The position numbers and the translations under genes were made by a program. DNA of 41,106 nt. It comes from Microcystis aeruginosa LEGE 91341. Lineage in GTDB: Bacteria; Cyanobacteriota; Cyanobacteriia; Cyanobacteriales; Microcystaceae. The first letter of the stretch is position 1. Each line of letters opens with the position of its first letter. Below the pieces are notes generated by a model. That model ran no database searches. It was given only the letters and a program-made list of their open reading frames with translations, and had not been told where the DNA came from. The stretch is from NCBI RefSeq assembly GCF_015206885.1, contig NZ_JADEXY010000018.1:1-41106 (forward strand), read 5' to 3'. Of this stretch, positions 15,171 through 39,048 are shown piece by piece.

Positions 15171-15289
15171 AATTCTGTTTAAAAGCTATGGGAAAGGGGG
15201 GAGTGGCTTATCTCCAATTCCCCCTCTCCTATCCCTTGATTCTTCAGCCACAGCGGCCGACCCCGCTTGATTGTAAAGATTTGTTTAGC

Positions 15290-15375
15290 TTGACCAGAGG
15301 TTGATAGTGCATAGGTTAGGATGAATCTTAAATGGATTCAAAATGAATTTTAAATGAATTCAAGATGAGCCAATC
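15290..15375 (+). promoter_or_regulatory. candidate promoter and helically phased operator of the encapsulin operon
   Basis: Four near-identical 11-bp units, ATGAATCTTAA, ATGGATTCAAA, ATGAATTTTAA and ATGAATTCAAG, run head to tail at 15321-15364; a fifth weaker one follows. A period of 11 puts each unit on the same DNA face. A possible -35 (TTGACC, 15290) and -10 (TAGGTT, 15312) lie just before them, which would place the repeats around the transcription start, as for a repressor. The repeats are seen directly; the promoter and regulator are inference. Confidence 0.45.
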
Positions 15376-15414
15376 TGGTGAACTGTCGTATTTTAATCAT
15401 GGAGTTGCCATTTT

Positions 15415-16395
15415 GTGAGTAAGAAATGGTTCGCGGATAACAGTTTGTCGATCGGGCGGACTCCTCTAGTGCGCCTTAATCGAATCGTTGGCAACAATCA
15501 CGCCACGGTTCTGGCCAAGATTGAAGGTCGTAATCCAGCCTATTCGGTCAAATGTCGTATTGGTGCGGCCATGATCTGGGATGCGGAACAACGGGGACTA
15601 TTGGGGCCGGGCAAAGAACTGGTGGAACCCACCAGTGGCAATACAGGCATCGCCCTGGCCTTTGTAGCCGCCGCTAAGGGGATTCCCCTGACCCTGACCA
15701 TGCCTGAAACCATGAGCTTAGAGCGGCGCAAACTGTTGCTCGCCTATGGAGCCAATTTGGTGTTAACAGAAGGGACTAAAGGCATGACCGGAGCGGTGGC
15801 AAAGGCAGAAGAAATTGCCGCATCTAATCCCGATCGCTATGTGTTGTTGCAACAGTTCCGCAATGCTGCCAATCCCCGCATCCATGAGGAAACCACCGGC
15901 CCCGAAATTTGGCAGGACACAGATGGGGCGATCGATATTCTCGTGTCGGGTGTGGGAACGGGCGGAACCATTACGGGAGTTTCGCGCTACATCAAAAAAA
16001 CCCAAGGAAAACCGATTTTATCGATAGCGGTGGAGCCAGAAGCCAGCCCGATACTATCCCAAGCTAGGGCAGGTCAGCCCCTAAAGTCCGGCCCTCACAA
16101 AATTCAGGGCATTGGGGCGGGGTTTATTCCCGAAGTTCTGGATTTATCCCTCGTGGATGGGATTGAAACCGTTTCCAACGAAGAGGCCATTCTTTATGCC
16201 CAAAGATTGGCTAAGGAAGAAGGGATTATCTCCGGCATTTCCTGCGGTGCCGCCGCTGCCGTCGCCGCTCGTTTGGGACAACAACCCGAACACCAAGGCA
16301 AAACCATTGTCGTGATTTTGCCAGATTCCGGAGAACGGTACTTGAGTTCCATCCTGTTCCAAGGGGTATTTAATGAGCAAGGGTTAGTGGCTTGA
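15415..16395 (+). CDS. cysK: cysteine synthase A (SrpG-like, first gene of the encapsulin operon)
   Basis: A 326-residue PLP enzyme making L-cysteine from O-acetylserine and sulfide. The PLP lysine is Lys46 in [11 protein letters not shown]; the PTSGNTGI substrate loop, TMPETMS and [10 protein letters not shown] phosphate loop are intact. SVKCRIG and the overall sequence resemble enterobacterial CysK more than typical cyanobacterial paralogues, as does SrpG from Synechococcus plasmids. A GTG start is used, with GGAG 10 bases upstream. GC content is clearly higher than in neighbouring core genes (one 60-base line counts 38 G+C). The stop codon TGA falls exactly in the TTGA end of an IS605-type remnant, so the last codons may differ from the ancestral gene. 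It supplies cysteine to the desulfurase encoded downstream. Confidence 0.95.
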
Positions 16396-16742
16396 CATCC
16401 TCGCCGCCCTAAAAGTGCGGCGATTCCTAAACCTCACGATTTAAGTTTCTGCTTCCACCACCGTCGCATACCACAGTTAAAAAACCATGTACTGTCTTAC
16501 ACAGAGTCCACAGACTTTCGCCCCATTTCAGAAGCCCGATTCCGTGTGTCCCACGGTACGTTGACCGCCTATAGCTTCTTGTACTTGTTGCGCGCGACTT
16601 TTTACCCGGCCAAGCTTTTCTGGTCGGAACCCCCTAAGCCGAGTTTTCAAGGTGCTGCGCCGTCCACTTGGTTTTCGAGACTGGCCTTTTAATTCTAACG
16701 TAAAGCCGCCGTTCTACGGCGGGGTTTCAGACCCAAAATTTC
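16392..16742 (-). mobile_element. decayed IS200/IS605-type (tnpB) element between cysK and srpH
   Basis: Both ends match the intact tnpB element at 37795-39605 in the same orientation: TTGACATCCTCGCCGC plus hairpin on one side, and a CCGCCG/CGGCGG hairpin then GGGTTTCAGACCCAAAATTT on the other. On the minus strand at about 16528-16557 and 16441-16465 a TnpB-tail-like peptide is readable but broken by stops (TVGHTESGF, later VVEAET). Most of tnpB is gone. It fills the whole cysK-srpH gap. Confidence 0.8.
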
Positions 16743-16744
16743 CC

Positions 16745-17704
16745 ATGACGAGCAAGTATCCGAGCAGTTCCAGCGCTCTCTCCCAACCGACCCTGTCCTT
16801 GGATCTCGATGAGATTATCGCTCAATTGTCCAAACCTCGTGGCGAGTCGTTCCACAGTTGGTATCAATCACGAAACCATTTCCCCTTGCCCTCCCGTGAG
16901 GCCTTATTTCGGATTGTTGATCGACTGCGTGCCGTTCTTTTTCCCTATCACTTTGGCAATCCCGATTTAGGCGAAACATCCAGCCGCTATTTTATCGGTC
17001 ATACCCTCAATGAAGTCTTGCAACTGCTGCATCATCAGGTTTGTCGCGAACAGTGGTTGCTGGGGTCACAGTTGCACTTAGAGGCAGACCAGATTGAGAC
17101 ACACGCCCAAGGGACGGTACAAGCCTTTGCCACTCAATTACCCCATCTGAAAGCTCTACTGGAAACCGATATCACGGCGGCCTATCGAGGTGATCCGGCG
17201 GCCAGAAATTTAGATGAAGTGTTGTTTTGTTATCCCGGAGTAACGGCCATCACTTATCACCGCATTGCCCATGCCCTGTATCGGTTGGAATCGCCCCTGT
17301 TGGCGCGGATTATCAGTGAAATTGGTCATTCCTTAACGGGGATTGACATTCACCCCGGCGCCTCGATTGGCAATAGTTTCTTTATCGATCATGGGACGGG
17401 GGTGGTGATTGGGGCCACCACGGTGATTGGCGACCGCGTGCGCCTTTACCAAGCGGTCACGCTCGGGGCGAAAAGTTTTCCCCGGGACGAATCGGGCAGT
17501 TTAATCAAAGGTCAAGCCCGTCATCCGATTATTGAAGATGATGTGGTGATTTACTCAGGTGCAACGATTCTCGGTCGGGTAACTATCGGTCGGGGTGCCA
17601 CCATCGGTGGAAATGTTTGGTTAACCCGCAGTGTGCCGCCGGGGGGTTTTATCTCCCAGGCGCAACTACGACAGGAAATGTTTGATGACGGCTCTGGAAT
17701 TTGA
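16745..17704 (+). CDS. srpH: serine O-acetyltransferase (SrpH/EpsC-like)
   Basis: A 319-residue enzyme making O-acetylserine from serine and acetyl-CoA, the substrate of the cysteine synthase upstream. The N-terminal helical domain (about 20-190) is followed by a left-handed beta helix of hexapeptide repeats (about 200-300) with HPGASIG, FIDHGTGVVIG (catalytic His) and YQAVTLGA. The length and N-terminal domain fit the longer EpsC/SrpH type associated with SrpI. I use the ATG at 16745; the frame is open further upstream only because it runs into transposon DNA. There is no ribosome site: the IS605 remnant ends 2 bases before the ATG, so insertion probably removed or replaced the native one. 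Translation may depend on read-through from cysK or an element-borne site. Confidence 0.93.
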   Translation: MTSKYPSSSSALSQPTLSLDLDEIIAQLSKPRGESFHSWYQSRNHFPLPSREALFRIVDRLRAVLFPYHFGNPDLGETSSRYFIGHTLNEVLQLLHHQVCREQWLLGSQLHLEADQIETHAQGTVQAFATQLPHLKALLETDITAAYRGDPAARNLDEVLFCYPGVTAITYHRIAHALYRLESPLLARIISEIGHSLTGIDIHPGASIGNSFFIDHGTGVVIGATTVIGDRVRLYQAVTLGAKSFPRDESGSLIKGQARHPIIEDDVVIYSGATILGRVTIGRGATIGGNVWLTRSVPPGGFISQAQLRQEMFDDGSGI

Positions 17705-17780
17705 GGGGCTGTCCGGGCTGTAAATGTTCGGCCATGACAGTCGCTTTGTTACTTTTTCTTAAATTGGAGGATTTAACTCG

Positions 17781-18713
17781 ATGACGTATAGCCAAGATCA
17801 TGAATTGCAACTGGCTTTGGGAGATGCTGCCGCTCGGCAGTTAGCCAATGCCACGAAGACCGTTCCTCAGTTATTGACCATTTCACCCCGGTGGTTCGTT
17901 CGCCTCTTGCATTGGCTACCCGTTGAGGCGGGGATTTATCGTCTCAATAAAGTCAGGGATGCTTCCCGGGTTGAGGTGGCCTGCTCTGAACGAGACGAGC
18001 GGGAGCTGCCCGAAACCTTTGTGGATTACGAAGAGACCCCCCGGGAGTATTTCTTGAGTGCGGTGAATACGGTACTGGATGTTCACACTCGCGTGTCCGA
18101 TCTCTACAGCAGTCCCCACGATCAGATCCATGAACAATTGCGGCTGACGATCGAAACCCTGAAGGAACGTCAAGAAAATGAGTTGATCAACAACCATGAG
18201 TATGGATTGCTGAACAATATTGTTGATTCCCAGAAAGTACAACCTCGCAATGGTGCGCCCACGCCGGACGATTTGGATGAGTTGCTGGTCAAGGTGTGGA
18301 AGGAACCGGCATTTTTCCTCGCCCATCCTAAAGCGATCGCCGCCTTTGGCCGAGAAGCAACCCGACGGGGTGTACCCCCTGCTACGGTGTCATTATTCGG
18401 GTCTCAGTTTATTACTTGGCGGGGCGTGCCTTTGATTCCTTCCGATAAGTTGGCCGTGAATGAGCAAGGCAAAACCAATATTTTGTTATTGCGGGTAGGA
18501 GAAAGCCGTCAAGGGGTAGTCGGTCTTTATCAGCCCAATTTACCCGGTCAACAGGGAGTTGGCTTGTCGGTGCGATTTATGGGGATTAGTCGCAAGGCGA
18601 TCTCCTCTTACCTGGTCTCCCTCTACTGTTCGTTGGCAGTGTTGACCGACGACGCGGCGGCCGTACTGGAGAACGTTGATGTCAACCAATACCACATCTA
18701 CGACTATGACTAA
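17781..18713 (+). CDS. srpI: SrpI family 2A encapsulin shell protein
   Basis: A 310-residue HK97-fold shell protein, the usual length for SrpI. Recognisable segments are the N-terminal arm (LALGDAAARQLANATKTVPQL), WLPVEAGIYRLNKV, the HLxxHE-like helix around SSPHDQIHEQLRLTIETL, the NNHEYGLLNN E-loop region, FGREATRRGVPPATVSLFGSQF, SDKLAV, LLLRVGESRQGVVGLYQP and the C-terminal YLVSLYCSLAVLTDDA. In the Synechococcus relative, SrpI forms a 60-subunit shell that packs a cysteine desulfurase. No cyclic-nucleotide-binding insertion is present, which makes it family 2A, not 2B. A strong GGAGG lies 10 bases before the ATG, unlike srpH and the cargo gene, consistent with a high-copy shell. It is 76 bases after srpH and just before the cargo gene. 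Confidence 0.95.
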   Translation: MTYSQDHELQLALGDAAARQLANATKTVPQLLTISPRWFVRLLHWLPVEAGIYRLNKVRDASRVEVACSERDERELPETFVDYEETPREYFLSAVNTVLDVHTRVSDLYSSPHDQIHEQLRLTIETLKERQENELINNHEYGLLNNIVDSQKVQPRNGAPTPDDLDELLVKVWKEPAFFLAHPKAIAAFGREATRRGVPPATVSLFGSQFITWRGVPLIPSDKLAVNEQGKTNILLLRVGESRQGVVGLYQPNLPGQQGVGLSVRFMGISRKAISSYLVSLYCSLAVLTDDAAAVLENVDVNQYHIYDYD

Positions 18714-18735
18714 CCCTGAACTGATCCGGTGAAAA

Positions 18736-18756
18736 GGCGGGGGGGAATTCCCCGCC
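18736..18756 (+). terminator. GC-rich hairpin between shell and cargo genes
   Basis: A perfect 7-bp stem, GGCGGGG / CCCCGCC, with a 7-base loop starts 23 bases after the srpI stop. No T run follows, so it is more likely a partial attenuator or an RNA end-stabiliser that sets more shell than cargo than a full terminator. Confidence 0.5.
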
Positions 18757-18889
18757 CACCACTGCCCTAACTGAGGTCGAGAACATTTCTCTTAAACCCT
18801 TATTCCAACCTGATCTTCTTGAGCATCTCGCCCAGACGATAATTCAAGAACTACAACGGCACGACCTTGGAGCGTCGCGGGCCAAGGGG

Positions 18890-20374
18890 TTGAGTACAGA
18901 CCGGGATGATCTGGTGCCATCCACGGCAGCCACCTCCCCGGCTGCTGTGGGCGAACGGCCTACAGTTCCCTTCGACGTAGCTCAGGGTAAACCCTTTACT
19001 GTACCCTTAGCCACCCCCTCTTTCTACTTCATCGAAGAGTTAGAAACAAAAATCCCCGACCTTCCGGCGGTAGTGGCCAAACCGGGCCAGCTTGTTCAAG
19101 TCCCAGCGATCGATCCCCTTTTTGTCCCCCAGGCAAGCGGGCGAAGCGTTCAACGACCTAGCTTCTTTGATGTTGATACCATTCGCCTGGATTTTCCCAT
19201 CCTGCAAGAACGGGTGAATGGCAAACCCTTGATCTGGTTCGACAATGCCGCAACAACTCAAAAGCCCCAAGCAGTCATCGATCGCCTCGTTCATTTCTAC
19301 AGCCATGAAAATTCCAATGTGCATCGTGCCGCCCATGAATTAGCGGCTCGCGACCCGGATGCTTACGAAGCGGCCAGAGAAACGGTACGCCGTTTTCTCA
19401 ATGCCTCCTCTGTCAACGAAATCATTTTCGTGCGGGGAACAACGGAAGGCATTAATCTGGTGGCAAAAAGCTGGGGACAACAAACCCTACAAGCGGGGGA
19501 TGAGATTGTCCTCACCCATCTAGAACACCATGCCAATATTGTGCCTTGGCAGCAACTAGCCGCCCAAACGGGAGCAAAATTGCGGGTTGTCCCCGTCGAT
19601 GACCACGGGCAGATTTTACTGGCAGAGTACCAACAATTACTCAACTCCCGCACAAAACTGGTGGCTTTTTCCCATGTTTCCAATGCCTTGGGAACCATTA
19701 CCCCGGCTAAACAAATCATTGACTTAGCCCATCGGGTCGGGGCCAAAGTCTTGTTAGATGGCGCTCAATCGGTTTCCCACATTCCGATCGATGTTCAACA
19801 ATTAGGGTGTGATTGGTTCGTCTTTTCCGGACATAAAGTCTTTGGTCCCACAGGGATCGGGGTACTTTATGGTCAAGAAGACCTGTTGAATGCCACGGTT
19901 CCCTGGCAAAGCGGCGGCAACATGATCGTGGATGTGACGTTTGAGCGCACCGTGTATCAGGCGGCTCCCACTCGTTTTGAGGCCGGAACGGGCAATATTG
20001 CCGATGCCGTTGGCTTAGGGACGGCCTTGGATTATGTTCAGCAGATTGGTTTGACCACCATTGCCAATTACGAGCATGAACTTCTGGAGTACGCCACTGC
20101 GGGACTGACAACCATCCCGGGCTTGCGTTTGATTGGGACGGCAGCCGATAAGGCTGCCGTGCTTTCCTTTGTGCTGGAGGGATTTGATGTGGAAGTGATT
20201 GGACAGGCCCTGAATCGGGAAGGGATTGCCGTGCGGGCAGGCCATCACTGCGCTCAACCCATTCTGCGACGCTTTGGTCTAGAGGCAACGGTGCGCCCTT
20301 CCTTGGCTTTCTACAATACTAAGGCCGAAGTGGATGCGCTGGTGGCCGCGTTGGAACGTCTGCAACACCAATAA
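18890..20374 (+). CDS. cysteine desulfurase, SufS-like, predicted encapsulin cargo
   Basis: Type II PLP desulfurase core from about residue 95: DNAATTQKP, HRAAHELA, HLEHHANIVPW, SGHKVFG with PLP Lys316, FEAGTGN and RAGHHCAQP with catalytic Cys454 (numbered from the TTG at 18890). Ahead of it is a Pro/Ala-rich, low-complexity extension with LATPSFYFIEEL at about 40-51, as in SrpI-associated desulfurases whose extension targets them into the shell. The reaction is cysteine to alanine plus persulfide sulfur. The TTG is a conservative start: the frame stays open upstream to 18725, with an amphipathic LKPLFQPDLLEHLAQTII stretch and an ATT at 18785 behind GAGG, which would add 35 residues. No scaffold (SufU, SufBCD) gene is nearby, fitting sulfur storage rather than FeS assembly. 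Confidence 0.93.
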   Translation: MSTDRDDLVPSTAATSPAAVGERPTVPFDVAQGKPFTVPLATPSFYFIEELETKIPDLPAVVAKPGQLVQVPAIDPLFVPQASGRSVQRPSFFDVDTIRLDFPILQERVNGKPLIWFDNAATTQKPQAVIDRLVHFYSHENSNVHRAAHELAARDPDAYEAARETVRRFLNASSVNEIIFVRGTTEGINLVAKSWGQQTLQAGDEIVLTHLEHHANIVPWQQLAAQTGAKLRVVPVDDHGQILLAEYQQLLNSRTKLVAFSHVSNALGTITPAKQIIDLAHRVGAKVLLDGAQSVSHIPIDVQQLGCDWFVFSGHKVFGPTGIGVLYGQEDLLNATVPWQSGGNMIVDVTFERTVYQAAPTRFEAGTGNIADAVGLGTALDYVQQIGLTTIANYEHELLEYATAGLTTIPGLRLIGTAADKAAVLSFVLEGFDVEVIGQALNREGIAVRAGHHCAQPILRRFGLEATVRPSLAFYNTKAEVDALVAALERLQHQ

Positions 20375-20421
20375 ACTGACGGTCATGGGTGGGGCAGCTT
20401 GTACACCTATTCCAGTTCCCC

Positions 20422-20518
20422 TATAGCGGTAAGCGCTTGAGTGAGATACAAACCAAGCTTTGCCTAGCATGGTTTATAGCTCGTGACACTGTACCTCATA
20501 CGACTGCACACCGCTATA
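20422..20518. mobile_element. TATAGCG-family element, copy c (97 bp)
   Basis: Ends TATAGCGGTAAGCGC and, in inverse, TATAGCGGTGTGCAGTC, with inner TGAGATAC and GTACCTCA also inverted. It lies 47 bases after the desulfurase stop. With copy b at 14815-15170 it brackets the encapsulin operon. Confidence 0.65.
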
Positions 20519-20583
20519 AACTGCCACCTATTTAAAATGTATAGGAGGGTGGAGAGCGGGTTTTTCAAGTTGGATTGGGAGTT

Positions 20584-20901: not shown

Positions 20902-21711
20902 CTAATAATTTTTGATCATTAATTCTCTACCAGATGCTGCCGCTCCTTGTTTATAATTATTCATGCCATACTGAAGATTCCACTCGATAATATGGGCAAA
21001 ATTAAAGAGTTTTCGTATCTCTGGACAATCATCGTAGGTAATTAACCATTTAGCCTGACATTGACGCATATTATCGGCAAAACGTTGATGATCGAAGCTG
21101 GTATGTAAATTACCTCTTACACCGTACAAACGGGATTTTGTGGCAGTATAGTAGGGGGGATCGAGAAAGATAAAAACTTCTTTTCCCTCAGCAAATAATA
21201 ATTCTTCGTAGTCTTGATTAGTAATTTTTACCGATGCTAATAACGGCGCAATTTGAGTTAATCTAGCCATTGATGAATCAGTAAATCTACTGGTAAAAGC
21301 CGCTTGAGAATACCCCCCCGAATCGACTGTTCCCGAAAAAGTAATCCGATTTAAGATAAAAAAACGCACTGCTTTCTCAAAGTCGGTTAACTTTAAATCT
21401 TCCCTTGTCAAATCTTGAAATAATTCTCGTCCGCTATCATATTTCTGTTTAATTTCTGTTATTTTTGCTACCAATAACTCAATATTTTCTTGAGCGCATT
21501 GCCAGAAACAATACAAATCATAATTTAAGTCATTAATCCAATAGGTTTTTATTTGTTGCTCAAAGAGTTGTTTAACAGCAAAAAACACTGAACCACCACC
21601 AAAAAAAGGTTCTCGATATTCCCTAATATTCACAGGAATTTGCGGCAGAATTTGCTTAATCGCCCGGGATTTCCCCCCCGGATAACGCAAGGGACTTTTA
21701 ATTTTTGACAT
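20902..21711 (-). CDS. D12-class (Dam-like) N6-adenine DNA methyltransferase
   Basis: A 269-residue enzyme. The N-terminal RYPGGKSR and FFGGGSVFF (36-44, AdoMet loop) and the catalytic DPPY (Asp184-Tyr187) are in alpha-class order, as in Dam, DpnM and EcoRV methylases; the inserted region between them would be the target recognition domain. It methylates adenine in an unknown short site; GATC is a fair guess from family membership but not shown. No matching restriction gene is adjacent; downstream on the same strand is no gene, upstream a Uma2 protein. It could be an orphan methylase or a leftover of a restriction system. Confidence 0.88.
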   Translation of the reverse strand: MSKIKSPLRYPGGKSRAIKQILPQIPVNIREYREPFFGGGSVFFAVKQLFEQQIKTYWINDLNYDLYCFWQCAQENIELLVAKITEIKQKYDSGRELFQDLTREDLKLTDFEKAVRFFILNRITFSGTVDSGGYSQAAFTSRFTDSSMARLTQIAPLLASVKITNQDYEELLFAEGKEVFIFLDPPYYTATKSRLYGVRGNLHTSFDHQRFADNMRQCQAKWLITYDDCPEIRKLFNFAHIIEWNLQYGMNNYKQGAAASGRELMIKNY

Positions 21712-21783: not shown

Positions 21784-22359
21784 CTACTTACTTTGTCTAG
21801 CTTGACTAACTTTTAACCAGGCAAAGATTTGTTGTGGAGTCAGTGTCAACTGAACCCCTGCAATTACCTTAAGCTGGTGATCCCCTCTGCAAACTTCCGG
21901 CTCTTGTTGGGGAGTAAACATTAAAACAGAATAATCATCTGGATCAAGCATCCATCCTAATTTACTGCCATGTTTTAAACAGTGTAGAATGTTGTCAATT
22001 ACACGGTTTACCTTTTGATCCGGTGAAAGAATTTCGATAGTCCAATCAGGTGCTTCCCTAAAGTCGTCCTCTGGTTCACCTGCTTGATTGAGGTTAATTC
22101 GATTCCATGCAATTACCGCCACATCAGGAACGATCGAACGCTCGCCGAAGGTACATCGCAACTCAGGTAAGGCTGTATAATCAACAGTGTGGCTGTCAAC
22201 CGCAGCTAAAAGACGTTTTTGCAGGATAGAGTGTCGAGTCTTAGGCATGGGTTTCTGAATTGCGACTCCATGCAAGTATTCCCATGCTGGAGAATCCTCC
22301 AAATATGGCAATTTGAGGAAATCTTCAAGGGTGAGACTCTCAGTCAAGGAAGTCGTCAT
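21784..22359 (-). CDS. Uma2 (DUF820) family nuclease-fold protein
   Basis: A 191-residue protein of the PD-(D/E)xK-fold Uma2 family, very numerous in cyanobacteria and often carried in accessory DNA. Seen here are the N-terminal SLTLEDFLKLP, AWEYLHGV, the ERSIVPDVAVI strand and DWTIEILSPDQ, which carry the predicted acidic metal ligands. Function is unproven in the family. I start at the ATG at 22359 because the longer TTG start at 22371 has no better ribosome site. It lies 72 bases upstream of the adenine methyltransferase on the same strand, so the two may be co-transcribed. Confidence 0.85.
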   Translation of the reverse strand: MTTSLTESLTLEDFLKLPYLEDSPAWEYLHGVAIQKPMPKTRHSILQKRLLAAVDSHTVDYTALPELRCTFGERSIVPDVAVIAWNRINLNQAGEPEDDFREAPDWTIEILSPDQKVNRVIDNILHCLKHGSKLGWMLDPDDYSVLMFTPQQEPEVCRGDHQLKVIAGVQLTLTPQQIFAWLKVSQARQSK

Positions 22360-22489
22360 CGGTTCAAGCAAAGGTTTTTTTTGTGACTTTATTATAAATG
22401 AACTTTATCTGGGTTGCTTACCGACGATTCAGGTATATTTGAGGAGAATTGGCCATCTCAATCAAATGGGTCGATTTCTTAACTATTCT

Positions 22490-22767: not shown

Positions 22768-23214
22768 TTATGGCGCTTCCCACTCTTTCTTTTCTAGTTC
22801 TTTAGCAAAGTGATTAAATATTAACCCAACTTCTTCCAATCCTAACCCTTCTTCTCGACTTATTTCTTCGATACTAGAATTTTTTACTCTCTCATAAATC
22901 ATCGATTCATAGCGGATTGTATGATGCTGTCTTAATCTCATAAAACTCAATCTTTCGCCAATATACTTTTGGCACTTTTGACAATGAAACTGGCGGCGTG
23001 GCACTTCTAAATATACCGGATTGCCTAATATTGATAAATCTCTGACTAGATTATACTCTGTCTGATTGATTCTGTCCAAGATTTGATGGCAATTCGGACA
23101 TTCAATTGTTTCATTTAAAAGAGCAAGCTTTAGGAAAATTGTCTGATCAATTTTTTGATAATTGACCACTGTTACATTTGGTAAATCGAGGAGTTGATCA
23201 AAATTTATCCACAT
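22768..23214 (-). pseudogene. truncated ISL3-family transposase (N-terminal 148 residues)
   Basis: The reading frame carries the ISL3 N-terminus: a zinc-finger pair (CPNCHQ and CQKC), the MRLRQHHTIRYESM linker and a helix-turn-helix-like segment (SIEEISREEGLGLEEV). It stops at KEWEAP, where full-length members continue for over 200 residues with the DDE catalytic domain. The cut is abrupt and unrelated sequence follows, so this is a deletion remnant without catalytic residues. A MITE with ISL3-like ends sits 91 bases away, although I cannot show that this protein mobilised it. Confidence 0.85.
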
Positions 23215-23307: not shown

Positions 23308-24261
23308 TTATGTCCCATAATACTTGCTGCTAAATCCTACAGATAGTGGTGCGCCATCATACTGACAAGATACACTGATCTTTAACTTTCTCTTGTGGTC
23401 GTAATAAGTGTGGAAGTGTGTTTGTGTACGAGCTAGTTCTAGCTCAGATGGGTTAATACTAAGTATTCCTAAAATCACCTCAGAATCGAACGGTCGGATC
23501 TGACTCCAAGGTGCAGTTTTTTTTAGTTCAATATCTACATAATTAATAAAATTTCCTTCTGCCTCTAACAGCATATTAGCTTGCTCGGAGTCAATGATAA
23601 TGTTGCCTACTTTATTGGGTTTACCGCCAACTGCCCTTGCCGCATCTGCGATAGACATCCCCATATACTGAAAAGGGCGATGGAAGGGTGAACTCAGCAC
23701 ATATAAGCCATAATCAATAGCTGCTCTATTTATGGCATCTCCAAGTGTCAATGTTCCGAGATAATCACCGTTTTTAGAAGCAACAGTGGCGTGTGAATTA
23801 ACTATTGAAACAATTTGGCTAGGTAATATGTTTATAGCTTTCTCAAACTGATTTTGGATAGGAACTGGAATTGAGACTGTTTGTTGTTCCTGCCAATTTT
23901 TATTATGTGAACGGAGAAAATCCTGCGGAAAAGACCAATAGAAACAACTGTTTTGACAATCAACGACAATCAGGAATGTTGGATTTGGTTGAAGTAACCA
24001 ATAATTGAGGGTTGCAACTTTAATGGGAACTGTAATTAAATTACTTTCTAATTTGGCTTCTTCTTTCCCTTTACATTGAATATTAAACAACTTTCCAGTT
24101 GGGTGTCCCCCCTGCATAATTTCACAAATGAAGTCGATACCTAAATCTCTCTCTTGAGGGACAGGAATAACGTTGCAGAATTCAACAAAAAAAGAACTGA
24201 GTAGATCGGCAGCAGTGACACCGATCTTTTGAGAATTAGTACGTTTAGGTAACCTGGTCAT
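23308..24261 (-). CDS. DUF4365 nuclease-fold protein with an extra C-terminal domain
   Basis: A 317-residue soluble protein. The N-terminal 150 residues fit DUF4365, a predicted PD-(D/E)xK nuclease-like domain: ERDLGIDFICE with the Asp, then FNIQCKGK with the Gln-x-Lys pair, then FLIVVD. The remaining half (about 165-317) is not recognised; it holds a YMGMSIADAARAVGG helix segment and a strand-rich tail. DUF4365 proteins are often seen in defence-related or mobile contexts, and this one is next to a broken transposase, a Uma2 protein and an adenine methyltransferase. Actual activity is unknown. Confidence 0.72.
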   Translation of the reverse strand: MTRLPKRTNSQKIGVTAADLLSSFFVEFCNVIPVPQERDLGIDFICEIMQGGHPTGKLFNIQCKGKEEAKLESNLITVPIKVATLNYWLLQPNPTFLIVVDCQNSCFYWSFPQDFLRSHNKNWQEQQTVSIPVPIQNQFEKAINILPSQIVSIVNSHATVASKNGDYLGTLTLGDAINRAAIDYGLYVLSSPFHRPFQYMGMSIADAARAVGGKPNKVGNIIIDSEQANMLLEAEGNFINYVDIELKKTAPWSQIRPFDSEVILGILSINPSELELARTQTHFHTYYDHKRKLKISVSCQYDGAPLSVGFSSKYYGT

Positions 24262-37774: not shown

Positions 37775-37930
37775 GGGTGCGGAATGTGGGTTGGTTGACA
37801 TCCTCACCGCCGGGGCCGGACGGTGATTCCCGGCAGATCAAACAAACTTAATTGAACGACCGACCGCTGGGTTGACGCTTCACGGGATGATGCTTCTTTA
37901 ACAGAAGTCTTACACTTTCCTCCACGTCCG
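37775..37930 (-). ncRNA. predicted omega RNA (reRNA) at the tnpB element right end
   Basis: The tnpB 3' end and element end read GGAATCACCG ... CGGTGAGGATGTCAA on the minus strand, the same shape as the known guide-RNA scaffold end of the Deinococcus TnpB element (GAATCAC hairpin, GTGAGG, TCAA). The guide would be the flank beginning CCAACCCACATTCCGC (37794 downward). The 5' limit is a guess. Confidence 0.45.
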
Positions 37931-39048
37931 TTTTTTGAGGTCTCCGATTGCCCACCGGCGACCTTGATATTAATTGCGGCGTTCACGTCTCGATCATGGA
38001 AAGTCCCACAGAAAAGACATTCCCACTCACGGATATTTAATGCTTTCTTACCGCCGATATTCCCACAACAGGAACATCGCTGAGACGTTGGCTCCCATCG
38101 AGAAATTATCAGAAAATTACGCCCATATTTATCAGATTTTGCCGATAGCATATCTCGGAAAGAACGCCATCCTAAATCTGATATAGCACGGGATAACTTG
38201 CGATTTTTAACCATTCCCGATGTGTTTAAATCCTCTAAAATTATCGTTTGATTTTCACGAACAACTCTAGTAGATAGTTTATGCAAGAAATCAGTGCGAG
38301 CGTCTTTAATCTTTGCGTGGATTTTAGCTACTCGTTTCCTAGTTTTTTCCCGTCGTTTACTTCCTTTCTGTTTTCTAGAAAGGTTTTTCTGTGCCTTTCT
38401 TAGCCGTTTTAATTGTTTCTTTAACGGTTTCGGTGCGTCTATCTTTTCCCCTGTTGAGAGAGTCGCAAAAGTAGCAATCCCTAGATCGATTCCCACGGAC
38501 TCCCCTTTATTAGGAAGTATTTCGGACTGAATCTCGACAACAAAGCTGAGAAAATAGCGATCTGCTGCATCTTTAATCACGGTGACACTAGAAGGCTTAG
38601 AAGGTAATGGACGACTCCAAACTATTCTTAGATCGCCGATTTTCGCTAAAGTAACGCAGTGCTGGTTAACGGTAAAACCATTGTCAGTAAATCTTGCTGA
38701 TTGCTTAGATTTACGCTTCTTAAATTTAGGAGGTTTGACTTTTCTTCCTTTTCTCTCTCCCTTGCAAGATGCAAAGAAGTTAGAGTAAGCAGTCTCTAAG
38801 TCTCTCAAAGACTGCTGTAAAGGGATAGAAGAAACCTCAGTTAACCACCGTCTTTCTTCTGTTTTTTTGACTTGAGTTAGTCTTTTAGATAACTCAGTAT
38901 ATTTTGGCTTTTTCTCCCCTTGTCGATAGAGTTCTTGACAGTGAGCCAAGGTATCGTTCCAGACAACGCGCACACACCCGAACAACTGAGACAAAAGCCT
39001 CTTTTGTTGGTCTGTTGGGTAAATACGGTATTGATACCTCGCTTTCAT
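37804..39048 (-). CDS. tnpB: TnpB RNA-guided endonuclease, IS200/IS605 family
   Basis: A 414-residue protein. It has an N-terminal helix-turn-helix-like start (YRIYPTDQQKRLLSQLFG), a beta-barrel and helical recognition region, and a RuvC nuclease with all catalytic motifs: Asp188 in GIDLGIATFA, Glu272 in IILEDLNTSGM and the DRDVNAAINI segment (Asp352 and Asp354). The zinc finger CSCCG ... CLFCG (about 325-347) lies in between. TnpB cuts DNA beside a transposon-specific motif using a guide RNA from the element's right end, which helps retain the transposon. The gene appears intact and potentially active. A 40-residue tail beyond the RuvC motif (GGQSETSKN to VRPRR) overlaps the RNA scaffold. 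Confidence 0.93.
   Translation of the reverse strand: MKARYQYRIYPTDQQKRLLSQLFGCVRVVWNDTLAHCQELYRQGEKKPKYTELSKRLTQVKKTEERRWLTEVSSIPLQQSLRDLETAYSNFFASCKGERKGRKVKPPKFKKRKSKQSARFTDNGFTVNQHCVTLAKIGDLRIVWSRPLPSKPSSVTVIKDAADRYFLSFVVEIQSEILPNKGESVGIDLGIATFATLSTGEKIDAPKPLKKQLKRLRKAQKNLSRKQKGSKRREKTRKRVAKIHAKIKDARTDFLHKLSTRVVRENQTIILEDLNTSGMVKNRKLSRAISDLGWRSFRDMLSAKSDKYGRNFLIISRWEPTSQRCSCCGNIGGKKALNIREWECLFCGTFHDRDVNAAINIKVAGGQSETSKNGRGGKCKTSVKEASSREASTQRSVVQLSLFDLPGITVRPRR

Follow-up and report, generated by a model that had tools for sequence, protein, structure and literature searches.

The stretch of DNA analysed here (the window), 41,106 nucleotides from Microcystis aeruginosa LEGE 91341, carries a cassette that encodes a desulfurase encapsulin of family 2A and is of the type found on plasmid pANL of Synechococcus elongatus. 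In our judgment (probability about 0.68) it was anciently acquired and is now eroding, with the start of the cargo gene broken in this strain. The cassette reads as old and eroding because a frameshift severs from its start the part of the cargo gene that is expected to steer the enzyme to the shell. Annotating it as a complete system would mislead.

Genes of the cassette and the shell protein

Four window ORFs, cysK, serine acetyltransferase, srpI and desulfurase, follow each other on one strand between positions 15415 and 20374 (Table 1), and profile models confirmed the families and the order that had been proposed for them from the sequence alone. In profile scans, CysK scored 447 bits against TIGR01139 (cut-off, 351), and the acetyltransferase, read from the GTG at 16652, passed the EpsC model NF041874 with 163 bits (cut-off, 150) and remained below the cysE cut-off of TIGR01172 (168 bits versus 211). 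Congener reading frames of this gene begin at the ATG at 16745, and the longer ORF from GTG 16652 is evidently a read-out from an inserted repeat that separates cysK from the acetyltransferase gene. The repeat was present at this site in the window and in one congener (G009) only, being lacking in five of the six congener cassettes, and further copies were found elsewhere in the genus. Short similarities link its two ends to the sequences that flank the TnpB gene of the window, and by eye it is a putative IS200/605 element. The desulfurase, read from the TTG at 18890, scored 858 bits against NF041166 (cut-off, 800) with a match that began only at profile position 217 of 623; it is thus a SufS-type desulfurase that adjoins the shell gene and fits the cargo model. 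Elsewhere in the same genome there were three further cysK-like frames (two at 60 to 61% and one at 35%) and one further acetyltransferase (at 47%), which bears out the view that the cassette's cysteine-synthesis enzymes are extra ones.

Table 1. Positions of the cassette and of features within it, numbered from the first nucleotide of the window
Feature	Position	Strand	Basis or remark
Whole cassette, common to congeners	15236..20421	+	Sequence comparison; flanks differ in most congeners
Cysteine synthase A gene cysK, 326 aa, starting at GTG	15415..16395	+	TIGR01139; 84% to pANL CysK
Dispersed repeat, MITE-like, at former cysK/acetyltransferase overlap	16392..16748		Congener comparison
Serine O-acetyltransferase (EpsC/CysE type), native ATG 16745	16745..17704	+	NF041874, 163 bits
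Family 2A encapsulin shell gene srpI, 310 aa	17781..18713	+	NF041162; PF19307; PDB 6x8m, E 1e-166
Conserved cargo start ATG overlapping srpI stop; TGA after 8 codons	18706..18732	+	Congener comparison
Orphaned N-terminal coding stretch with first-motif-like segment PDLLEHLAQTIIQEL	18725..18889	+	No in-frame ATG, GTG or TTG
+1 frameshift site relative to congeners	18728..18729	+	Congener alignment
Cysteine desulfurase CyD as still startable (TTG), 494 aa	18890..20374	+	NF041166; PF00266
24-bp in-frame repeat insertion, cargo N-terminal region	18968..18991	+	Variable among congeners

The stretch shared within Microcystis ends about 50 bp past the desulfurase stop and is about 100 bp longer on the right side between some congener pairs; neither an inverted repeat nor a duplication was found by eye at its ends. 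The promoter scan gave one match, on the minus strand (shuffle mean, 4.5), and terminator-like sites numbered nine (shuffle mean, 6.4).

The assignment of the shell to family 2A was upheld. It scored 533.7 bits against the 2A model NF041162 (cut-off, 380) and less against the 2B model NF041163, whose cut-off it also exceeded (428.7 versus 400); the cNMP-binding domain that marks 2B against 2A was absent, PF19307 being the sole Pfam match in the 310 residues. Its near-full-length match to 6x8m predicts an HK97 fold. It is identical to SrpI of S. elongatus PCC 7942 at 249 of 310 residues, among them the pore residues R192, G194 and P196 and the cargo-site residues F262 and Y273, while the pore residue R304 is replaced by D (for the roles of these residues, see PMC8049743). 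The Major membrane protein I shells (PDB 8t6r, 9ksl, 8wol and 8won) also matched nearly the whole length of the window shell but scored below S. elongatus SrpI, and are thus more distant.

The broken start of the desulfurase gene

The operon had been called complete from the sequence alone, a description that fails at the cargo start. In all five congeners with full-length genes, the desulfurase frame is open from an ATG that overlaps the srpI stop, and both loading motifs, identified by eye, are joined to that start codon. In the window the frame from this ATG meets a TGA after 8 codons, and the N-terminal domain with both motifs is no longer joined to a start. The frame shifts where the window has GG and the congeners have C, and a 12-bp in-frame deletion relative to the congeners follows 18748, beside the frameshift site. 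Upstream of 18890 the desulfurase frame holds no ATG, GTG or TTG, so that the next usable start is the TTG at that position, which lies downstream of the first motif (located by eye). The ORF that begins there encodes the second-motif segment SFYFIEEL and the SufS-type domain. The long N-terminal extension claimed for the desulfurase therefore stands insofar as about 92 residues of it are present in the TTG-initiated ORF, but these residues do not include the first loading motif.

The frameshift is known from one draft assembly of 280 contigs, the one genome of its species that was compared, and a run of seven G residues and a GC-rich inverted repeat lie beside it. An assembly or sequencing error, which would mean that the operon is undamaged and works as it does in the five congeners, is consistent with these circumstances and with the low dN/dS of the desulfurase domain (0.097 here versus 0.047 among congeners). 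We consider such an error unlikely, though to be taken seriously, since the difference from the congeners is a substitution of GG for C rather than a change in homopolymer length and is accompanied by the 12-bp deletion, and since eight of eight other window genes showed no frame break in the stretches compared with congeners (some of the matches being partial). Private changes in the catalytic part of the window desulfurase, such as S64D and T65P, also argue against it: the second position of this pair was T in 79 of 84 other sequences, the motif not being located in 2 of the 84. The private D-P pair itself was set aside as proof of decay because such a pair could cap a helix. Selection still constrains the desulfurase domain, so that the break, if real, either happened recently or leaves the enzyme in production.

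Continued production could in principle involve a +1 slippage at CGG-UGA or a noncanonical start, either of which would yield a little loadable cargo next to a shorter form that is not loaded. A +1 step at the UGA reaches the downstream frame, which is open over 549 codons with no stop, and a shift in this direction at UGA occurs in the RF2 gene. We nevertheless hold either route to be very improbable, because the slip site is not conserved, the congeners being in frame without one, and because no internal Shine-Dalgarno sequence was seen by eye at the site.

Distribution and history of the cassette

The GC contents of the four cassette genes were 0.521 to 0.535, compared to 0.439 for 17 other window coding sequences that we chose for the comparison, none of which exceeded 0.491. 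Both GC and GC3 of the cassette lay beyond the range of these 17 genes. The block is thus GC-richer than its neighbours, as first described, and has the foreign composition expected of a transferred island. The sequence-only reading had concluded that the transfer was recent, and an arrival in the window strain from a GC-richer donor would fit both this composition and the finding that none of 38 other genomes from the family matched the cassette. The distribution within the genus, however, makes a recent transfer extremely unlikely. Of 12 genomes representing Microcystis species, 7 had the cassette, the window included; it was full-length in five, among them M. wesenbergii FACHB-1317 and M. 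viridis FACHB-1342, and broken in two (one of them the window), and the five genomes without a match are mostly drafts. The five full-length congener copies had DNA identities of 94.7 to 96.3%, and identity across six genomes was 0.965 to 0.981 for the four concatenated cassette gene stretches and 0.963 to 0.981 for one 751-bp core stretch. A recent island should be absent from relatives or far less diverged in them than the core, and the cassette was neither. These results point instead to an old acquisition, in which the Microcystis lineage would have gained the cassette ahead of the divergence of its sampled species; in some members of the genus it would since have been moved, lost or disrupted.

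The two broken cassettes were damaged at different places: in G011, the shell gene has a frameshift and a stop, and the desulfurase lacks its catalytic domain. Several different surroundings were occupied across the genus, and movement of the cassette between Microcystis species is possible. At the site used in G010 and G011, the right flank was found without the cassette in all seven stretches compared (G001, G002, G003, G005, G006, G007 and G009). A clean empty site was considered there and rejected, as the left flank was not found joined to the right flank in any of the seven; in G005, both flanks lay within one 11-kb span with their relative orientation changed. Neither a target duplication nor an insertion mechanism was readable from the flanks of this site. 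An improbable extension of this history is that the cassette, with no transposase of its own, has been repeatedly re-sited and disarmed, and that the shell is kept here uncoupled from its enzyme, either empty or with a second cargo.

The order cysK-acetyltransferase-srpI-desulfurase is the same on pANL of S. elongatus PCC 7942, which has in addition a downstream rhodanese gene that the Microcystis cassette lacks. Both loading-motif segments of the S. elongatus cargo were recognizable by eye in the Microcystis congeners, but the cargo N-terminal region of the latter is shorter (149 to 161 residues versus 225 in S. elongatus; PMC8049743), has one copy of the first motif rather than the two seen by eye in S. 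elongatus, and, unlike that of S. elongatus, has a start that overlaps srpI, the feature that is frameshifted in the window. In Cyanobium/Synechococcus cassettes (L019, L020, L098, L100 and L106) the shell gene also adjoins the desulfurase gene, with a cysK-like gene nearby in L098, L100 and L106 and, by eye, an acetyltransferase-like frame beside the shell gene in L019 and L020; these cassettes form a separate SrpI branch that grouped with Methylococcus. Trees of SrpI and the desulfurase had been proposed as a check of the transfer claim. In quick trees the Microcystis copies occupied a long branch and had the S. elongatus type as their sister (SH-aLRT, 95 and 98), which again does not suggest a recent event, but a single cyanobacterial clade was not rejected for either SrpI (p-AU 0.197; 12 rows) or the desulfurase (p-AU 0.37; 11 rows, with the S. 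elongatus row absent). Because one clade was not rejected, vertical descent with losses is a possible history and may be compatible with these trees.

Cargo loading and the proposed working of the cassette

The SrpI system of S. elongatus is induced by sulfate starvation. Intact congener cassettes would be expected to operate like that system: cysteine would be made by the acetyltransferase and CysK, SrpI would assemble into a 60-subunit shell, and the desulfurase, docked inside by its disordered N-terminal region, would strip sulfur from cysteine entering through the shell pores. The sulfur could then be either stored or handed over; storage as elemental sulfur has reportedly been described by Benisch in 2024. 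In the window strain, the frameshift at the junction of srpI and the cargo gene would cut the conserved cargo start off from the rest, leaving the desulfurase either absent or produced from a weak start farther downstream. Since the desulfurase would then be missing or would lack the first loading motif, the shell probably holds no cargo or is loaded only poorly. We infer impaired loading by analogy with deletion data from S. elongatus, in which a reporter is loaded by the first 100 residues of the desulfurase N-terminal domain but not by the second-motif peptide (155-183) on its own, and loading of a desulfurase without the N-terminal domain is not measurable (PMC8049743).

Among the papers listed for srpI or encapsulins together with Microcystis, none was by its title about srpI in that genus; in the passages of PMC7356878 considered, which report Fe-S genes of M. 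aeruginosa under copper, srpI is not mentioned. The varied cassette states of the 12 Microcystis species genomes form a natural test set for why this encapsulin is kept. Comparing natural cassette loss with lake sulfate is one route to its role, and is worth taking because S. elongatus knock-outs grew unimpaired in both replete and sulfur-starved medium (PMC8049743).

Families of the four cassette genes

The sequence-only reading had proposed four plus-strand genes here, and profile models confirmed the family of each at the coordinates proposed. The kind of system had also been rightly recognized and is a known one, the nearest of the solved structures to the window shell being that of S. elongatus SrpI. 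The shell likewise passed the 2B encapsulin model (429 against a cut-off of 400), and the acetyltransferase scored 168 bits with TIGR01172 (cysE), under its cut-off of 211. Because the same genome holds further cysK-like frames (two at 60 to 61% and one at 35%), one more acetyltransferase (47%), and a SufS-like frame (47%) plus weaker desulfurase relatives, the cassette enzymes are extra copies.

Features of the cassette and its surroundings in the window
Feature	Position	Strand	Evidence or remark
cysK	15415-16395	+	TIGR01139, 447 bits (cut-off 351)
Dispersed MITE-like repeat	16392-16748		~350 bp, cysK/acetyltransferase junction
Serine O-acetyltransferase	native ATG 16745	+	NF041874 EpsC, 163 bits (cut-off 150)
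srpI shell	17781-18713	+	NF041162, 534 bits (cut-off 380)
Desulfurase frame	end at 20374	+	NF041166, 858 bits (cut-off 800)
Dam-type adenine methyltransferase (D12)	20902-21711		adjoins cassette
Uma2-family ORF	21784-22371
Truncated ISL3-family transposase	22768-23214		148 aa vs 370-position model
DUF4365 protein	23308-24261
TnpB, IS200/605 type	37804-39048		OrfB, Cas12f1-like TNB domain

Damage at two gene junctions

The operon had been described as complete, but it is eroded. Five congeners (G001, G006, G007, G009, and G010) have full-length genes, and in each of them the desulfurase frame runs open from an ATG that overlaps the srpI stop; their cargo N-terminal region, by our own cut, is 149 to 161 residues long. 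The equivalent ATG in the window (18706) is followed by a TGA after 8 codons. When aligned with four of these congeners (the fifth, G001, came from a separate comparison), the window was found to have one extra base (CCGGTG vs CCCTG) and, 19 bp beyond it, to carry a 12-bp in-frame deletion. The frameshift site adjoins a run of seven G residues in a draft assembly. We nevertheless consider an artefact unlikely, since the base change is not a plain homopolymer slip and eight other genes of the contig showed no frame break in the stretches compared with congeners; several of those matches are partial, and one, to DnaK, carries a single-residue gap.

No ATG, GTG, or TTG occurs in the downstream desulfurase frame of the window before TTG 18890. 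Because the frame is shifted after ATG 18706 and the next start comes only there, the intervening stretch is orphaned. It contains PDLLEHLAQTIIQEL, matched by eye to the first conserved cargo motif, which is SLEQLTQTVLQDL in S. elongatus and is given as LARLANEFFS (PMC8049743). The second motif is still present (SFYFIEEL for AASPYYFLDG). In S. elongatus, a reporter is loaded by the first 100 residues of the cargo, but more poorly than by the full 225; a peptide with the second motif does not load it by itself, and the desulfurase without its N-terminal domain shows no measurable loading (PMC8049743). These deletion data, together with the separation of the first motif from the start, suggest that cargo loading is impaired in the window strain. 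The same N-terminal region carries a 24-bp in-frame repeat (18968-18991, translated FDVAQGKP) that is shared with G009, has a longer form in G011, and is missing from four congeners.

The cysK/acetyltransferase junction is also damaged. These genes overlap by ATGA in the three congeners whose junction sequence was examined, and coordinates are consistent with this overlap in all six congeners except G009. The MITE-like repeat lies at this point in both the window and G009, and in the window the acetyltransferase ORF is lengthened upstream through it by chance. Among the matches listed, near-full-length copies of the repeat occur at 96 to 99% in G000 (the host genome), G001, G002, G005, G006, G009, and G010 and at 91 to 92% in G004 and G011, with partial copies in G003 and G008 and a weak best match in G007. 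Both repeat ends show short similarities flanking the TnpB gene, one on each side (E values of 3e-4 and 0.14, the latter weak), and the element that gave rise to the repeat may be related to this TnpB. Decay is further seen in G011: its shell gene is broken by a frameshift, a stop, and inserted repeats, and no catalytic domain of the desulfurase was found.

Distribution, composition, and age

A search of 50 genomes of the family found SrpI in 7 of the 12 from Microcystis and in none of the other 38. The 2A shell model had matches in 22 of 386 cyanobacterial genomes, 9 of them over the cut-off; two of those (G237 and G268) look like holders of 2B shells, judging by long frames with split matches. 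The block is GC-richer than its neighbors, as had been noted (0.521 to 0.535 for the four genes vs 0.439 for 17 other window coding sequences), but the recent transfer proposed from this was not supported, and the cassette is most likely old. Across the six genomes with full-length genes, pairwise identity was 0.965 to 0.981 over four concatenated cassette stretches (without the desulfurase N-terminal region, and with the decayed G011 left out) and 0.963 to 0.981 over one 751-bp core stretch. Since the two divergences match, we read the foreign composition as an old signature.

Quick trees placed Microcystis sister to the S. elongatus type, with SH-aLRT values of 95 for SrpI (86 rows) and 98 for the desulfurase (84 rows, two truncated rows dropped and PCC 7942 added); most rows came from a scan that kept 80 of 558 confirmed relatives. 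A single clade of all cyanobacterial copies was not rejected for either protein (the desulfurase test being run without the S. elongatus row). The patchy distribution is better explained by an old transfer, but the trees fall short of proof.

The two ends of the shared stretch nearly coincide among the full-length copies (window coordinates 15207 to 15238 on the left and 20421 to 20423 on the right). G010 and G011 have both flanks in common and the window and G007 the right flank; the others mostly differ. The window's left neighbor was found in all 12 genus genomes, at ~2.6 Mb from the cassette in G001, 1.8 Mb in G009, and 0.35 Mb in G011, each time with both on one large contig. DNA related to the D12 methyltransferase region lies on both sides of the cassette in G001 (locus L011) and on the right side in G007. 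By eye, an insertion of ~100 bp (20422-20521, with ends TATAGCGG...CCGCTATA) follows the desulfurase stop and breaks the shared cassette tail.
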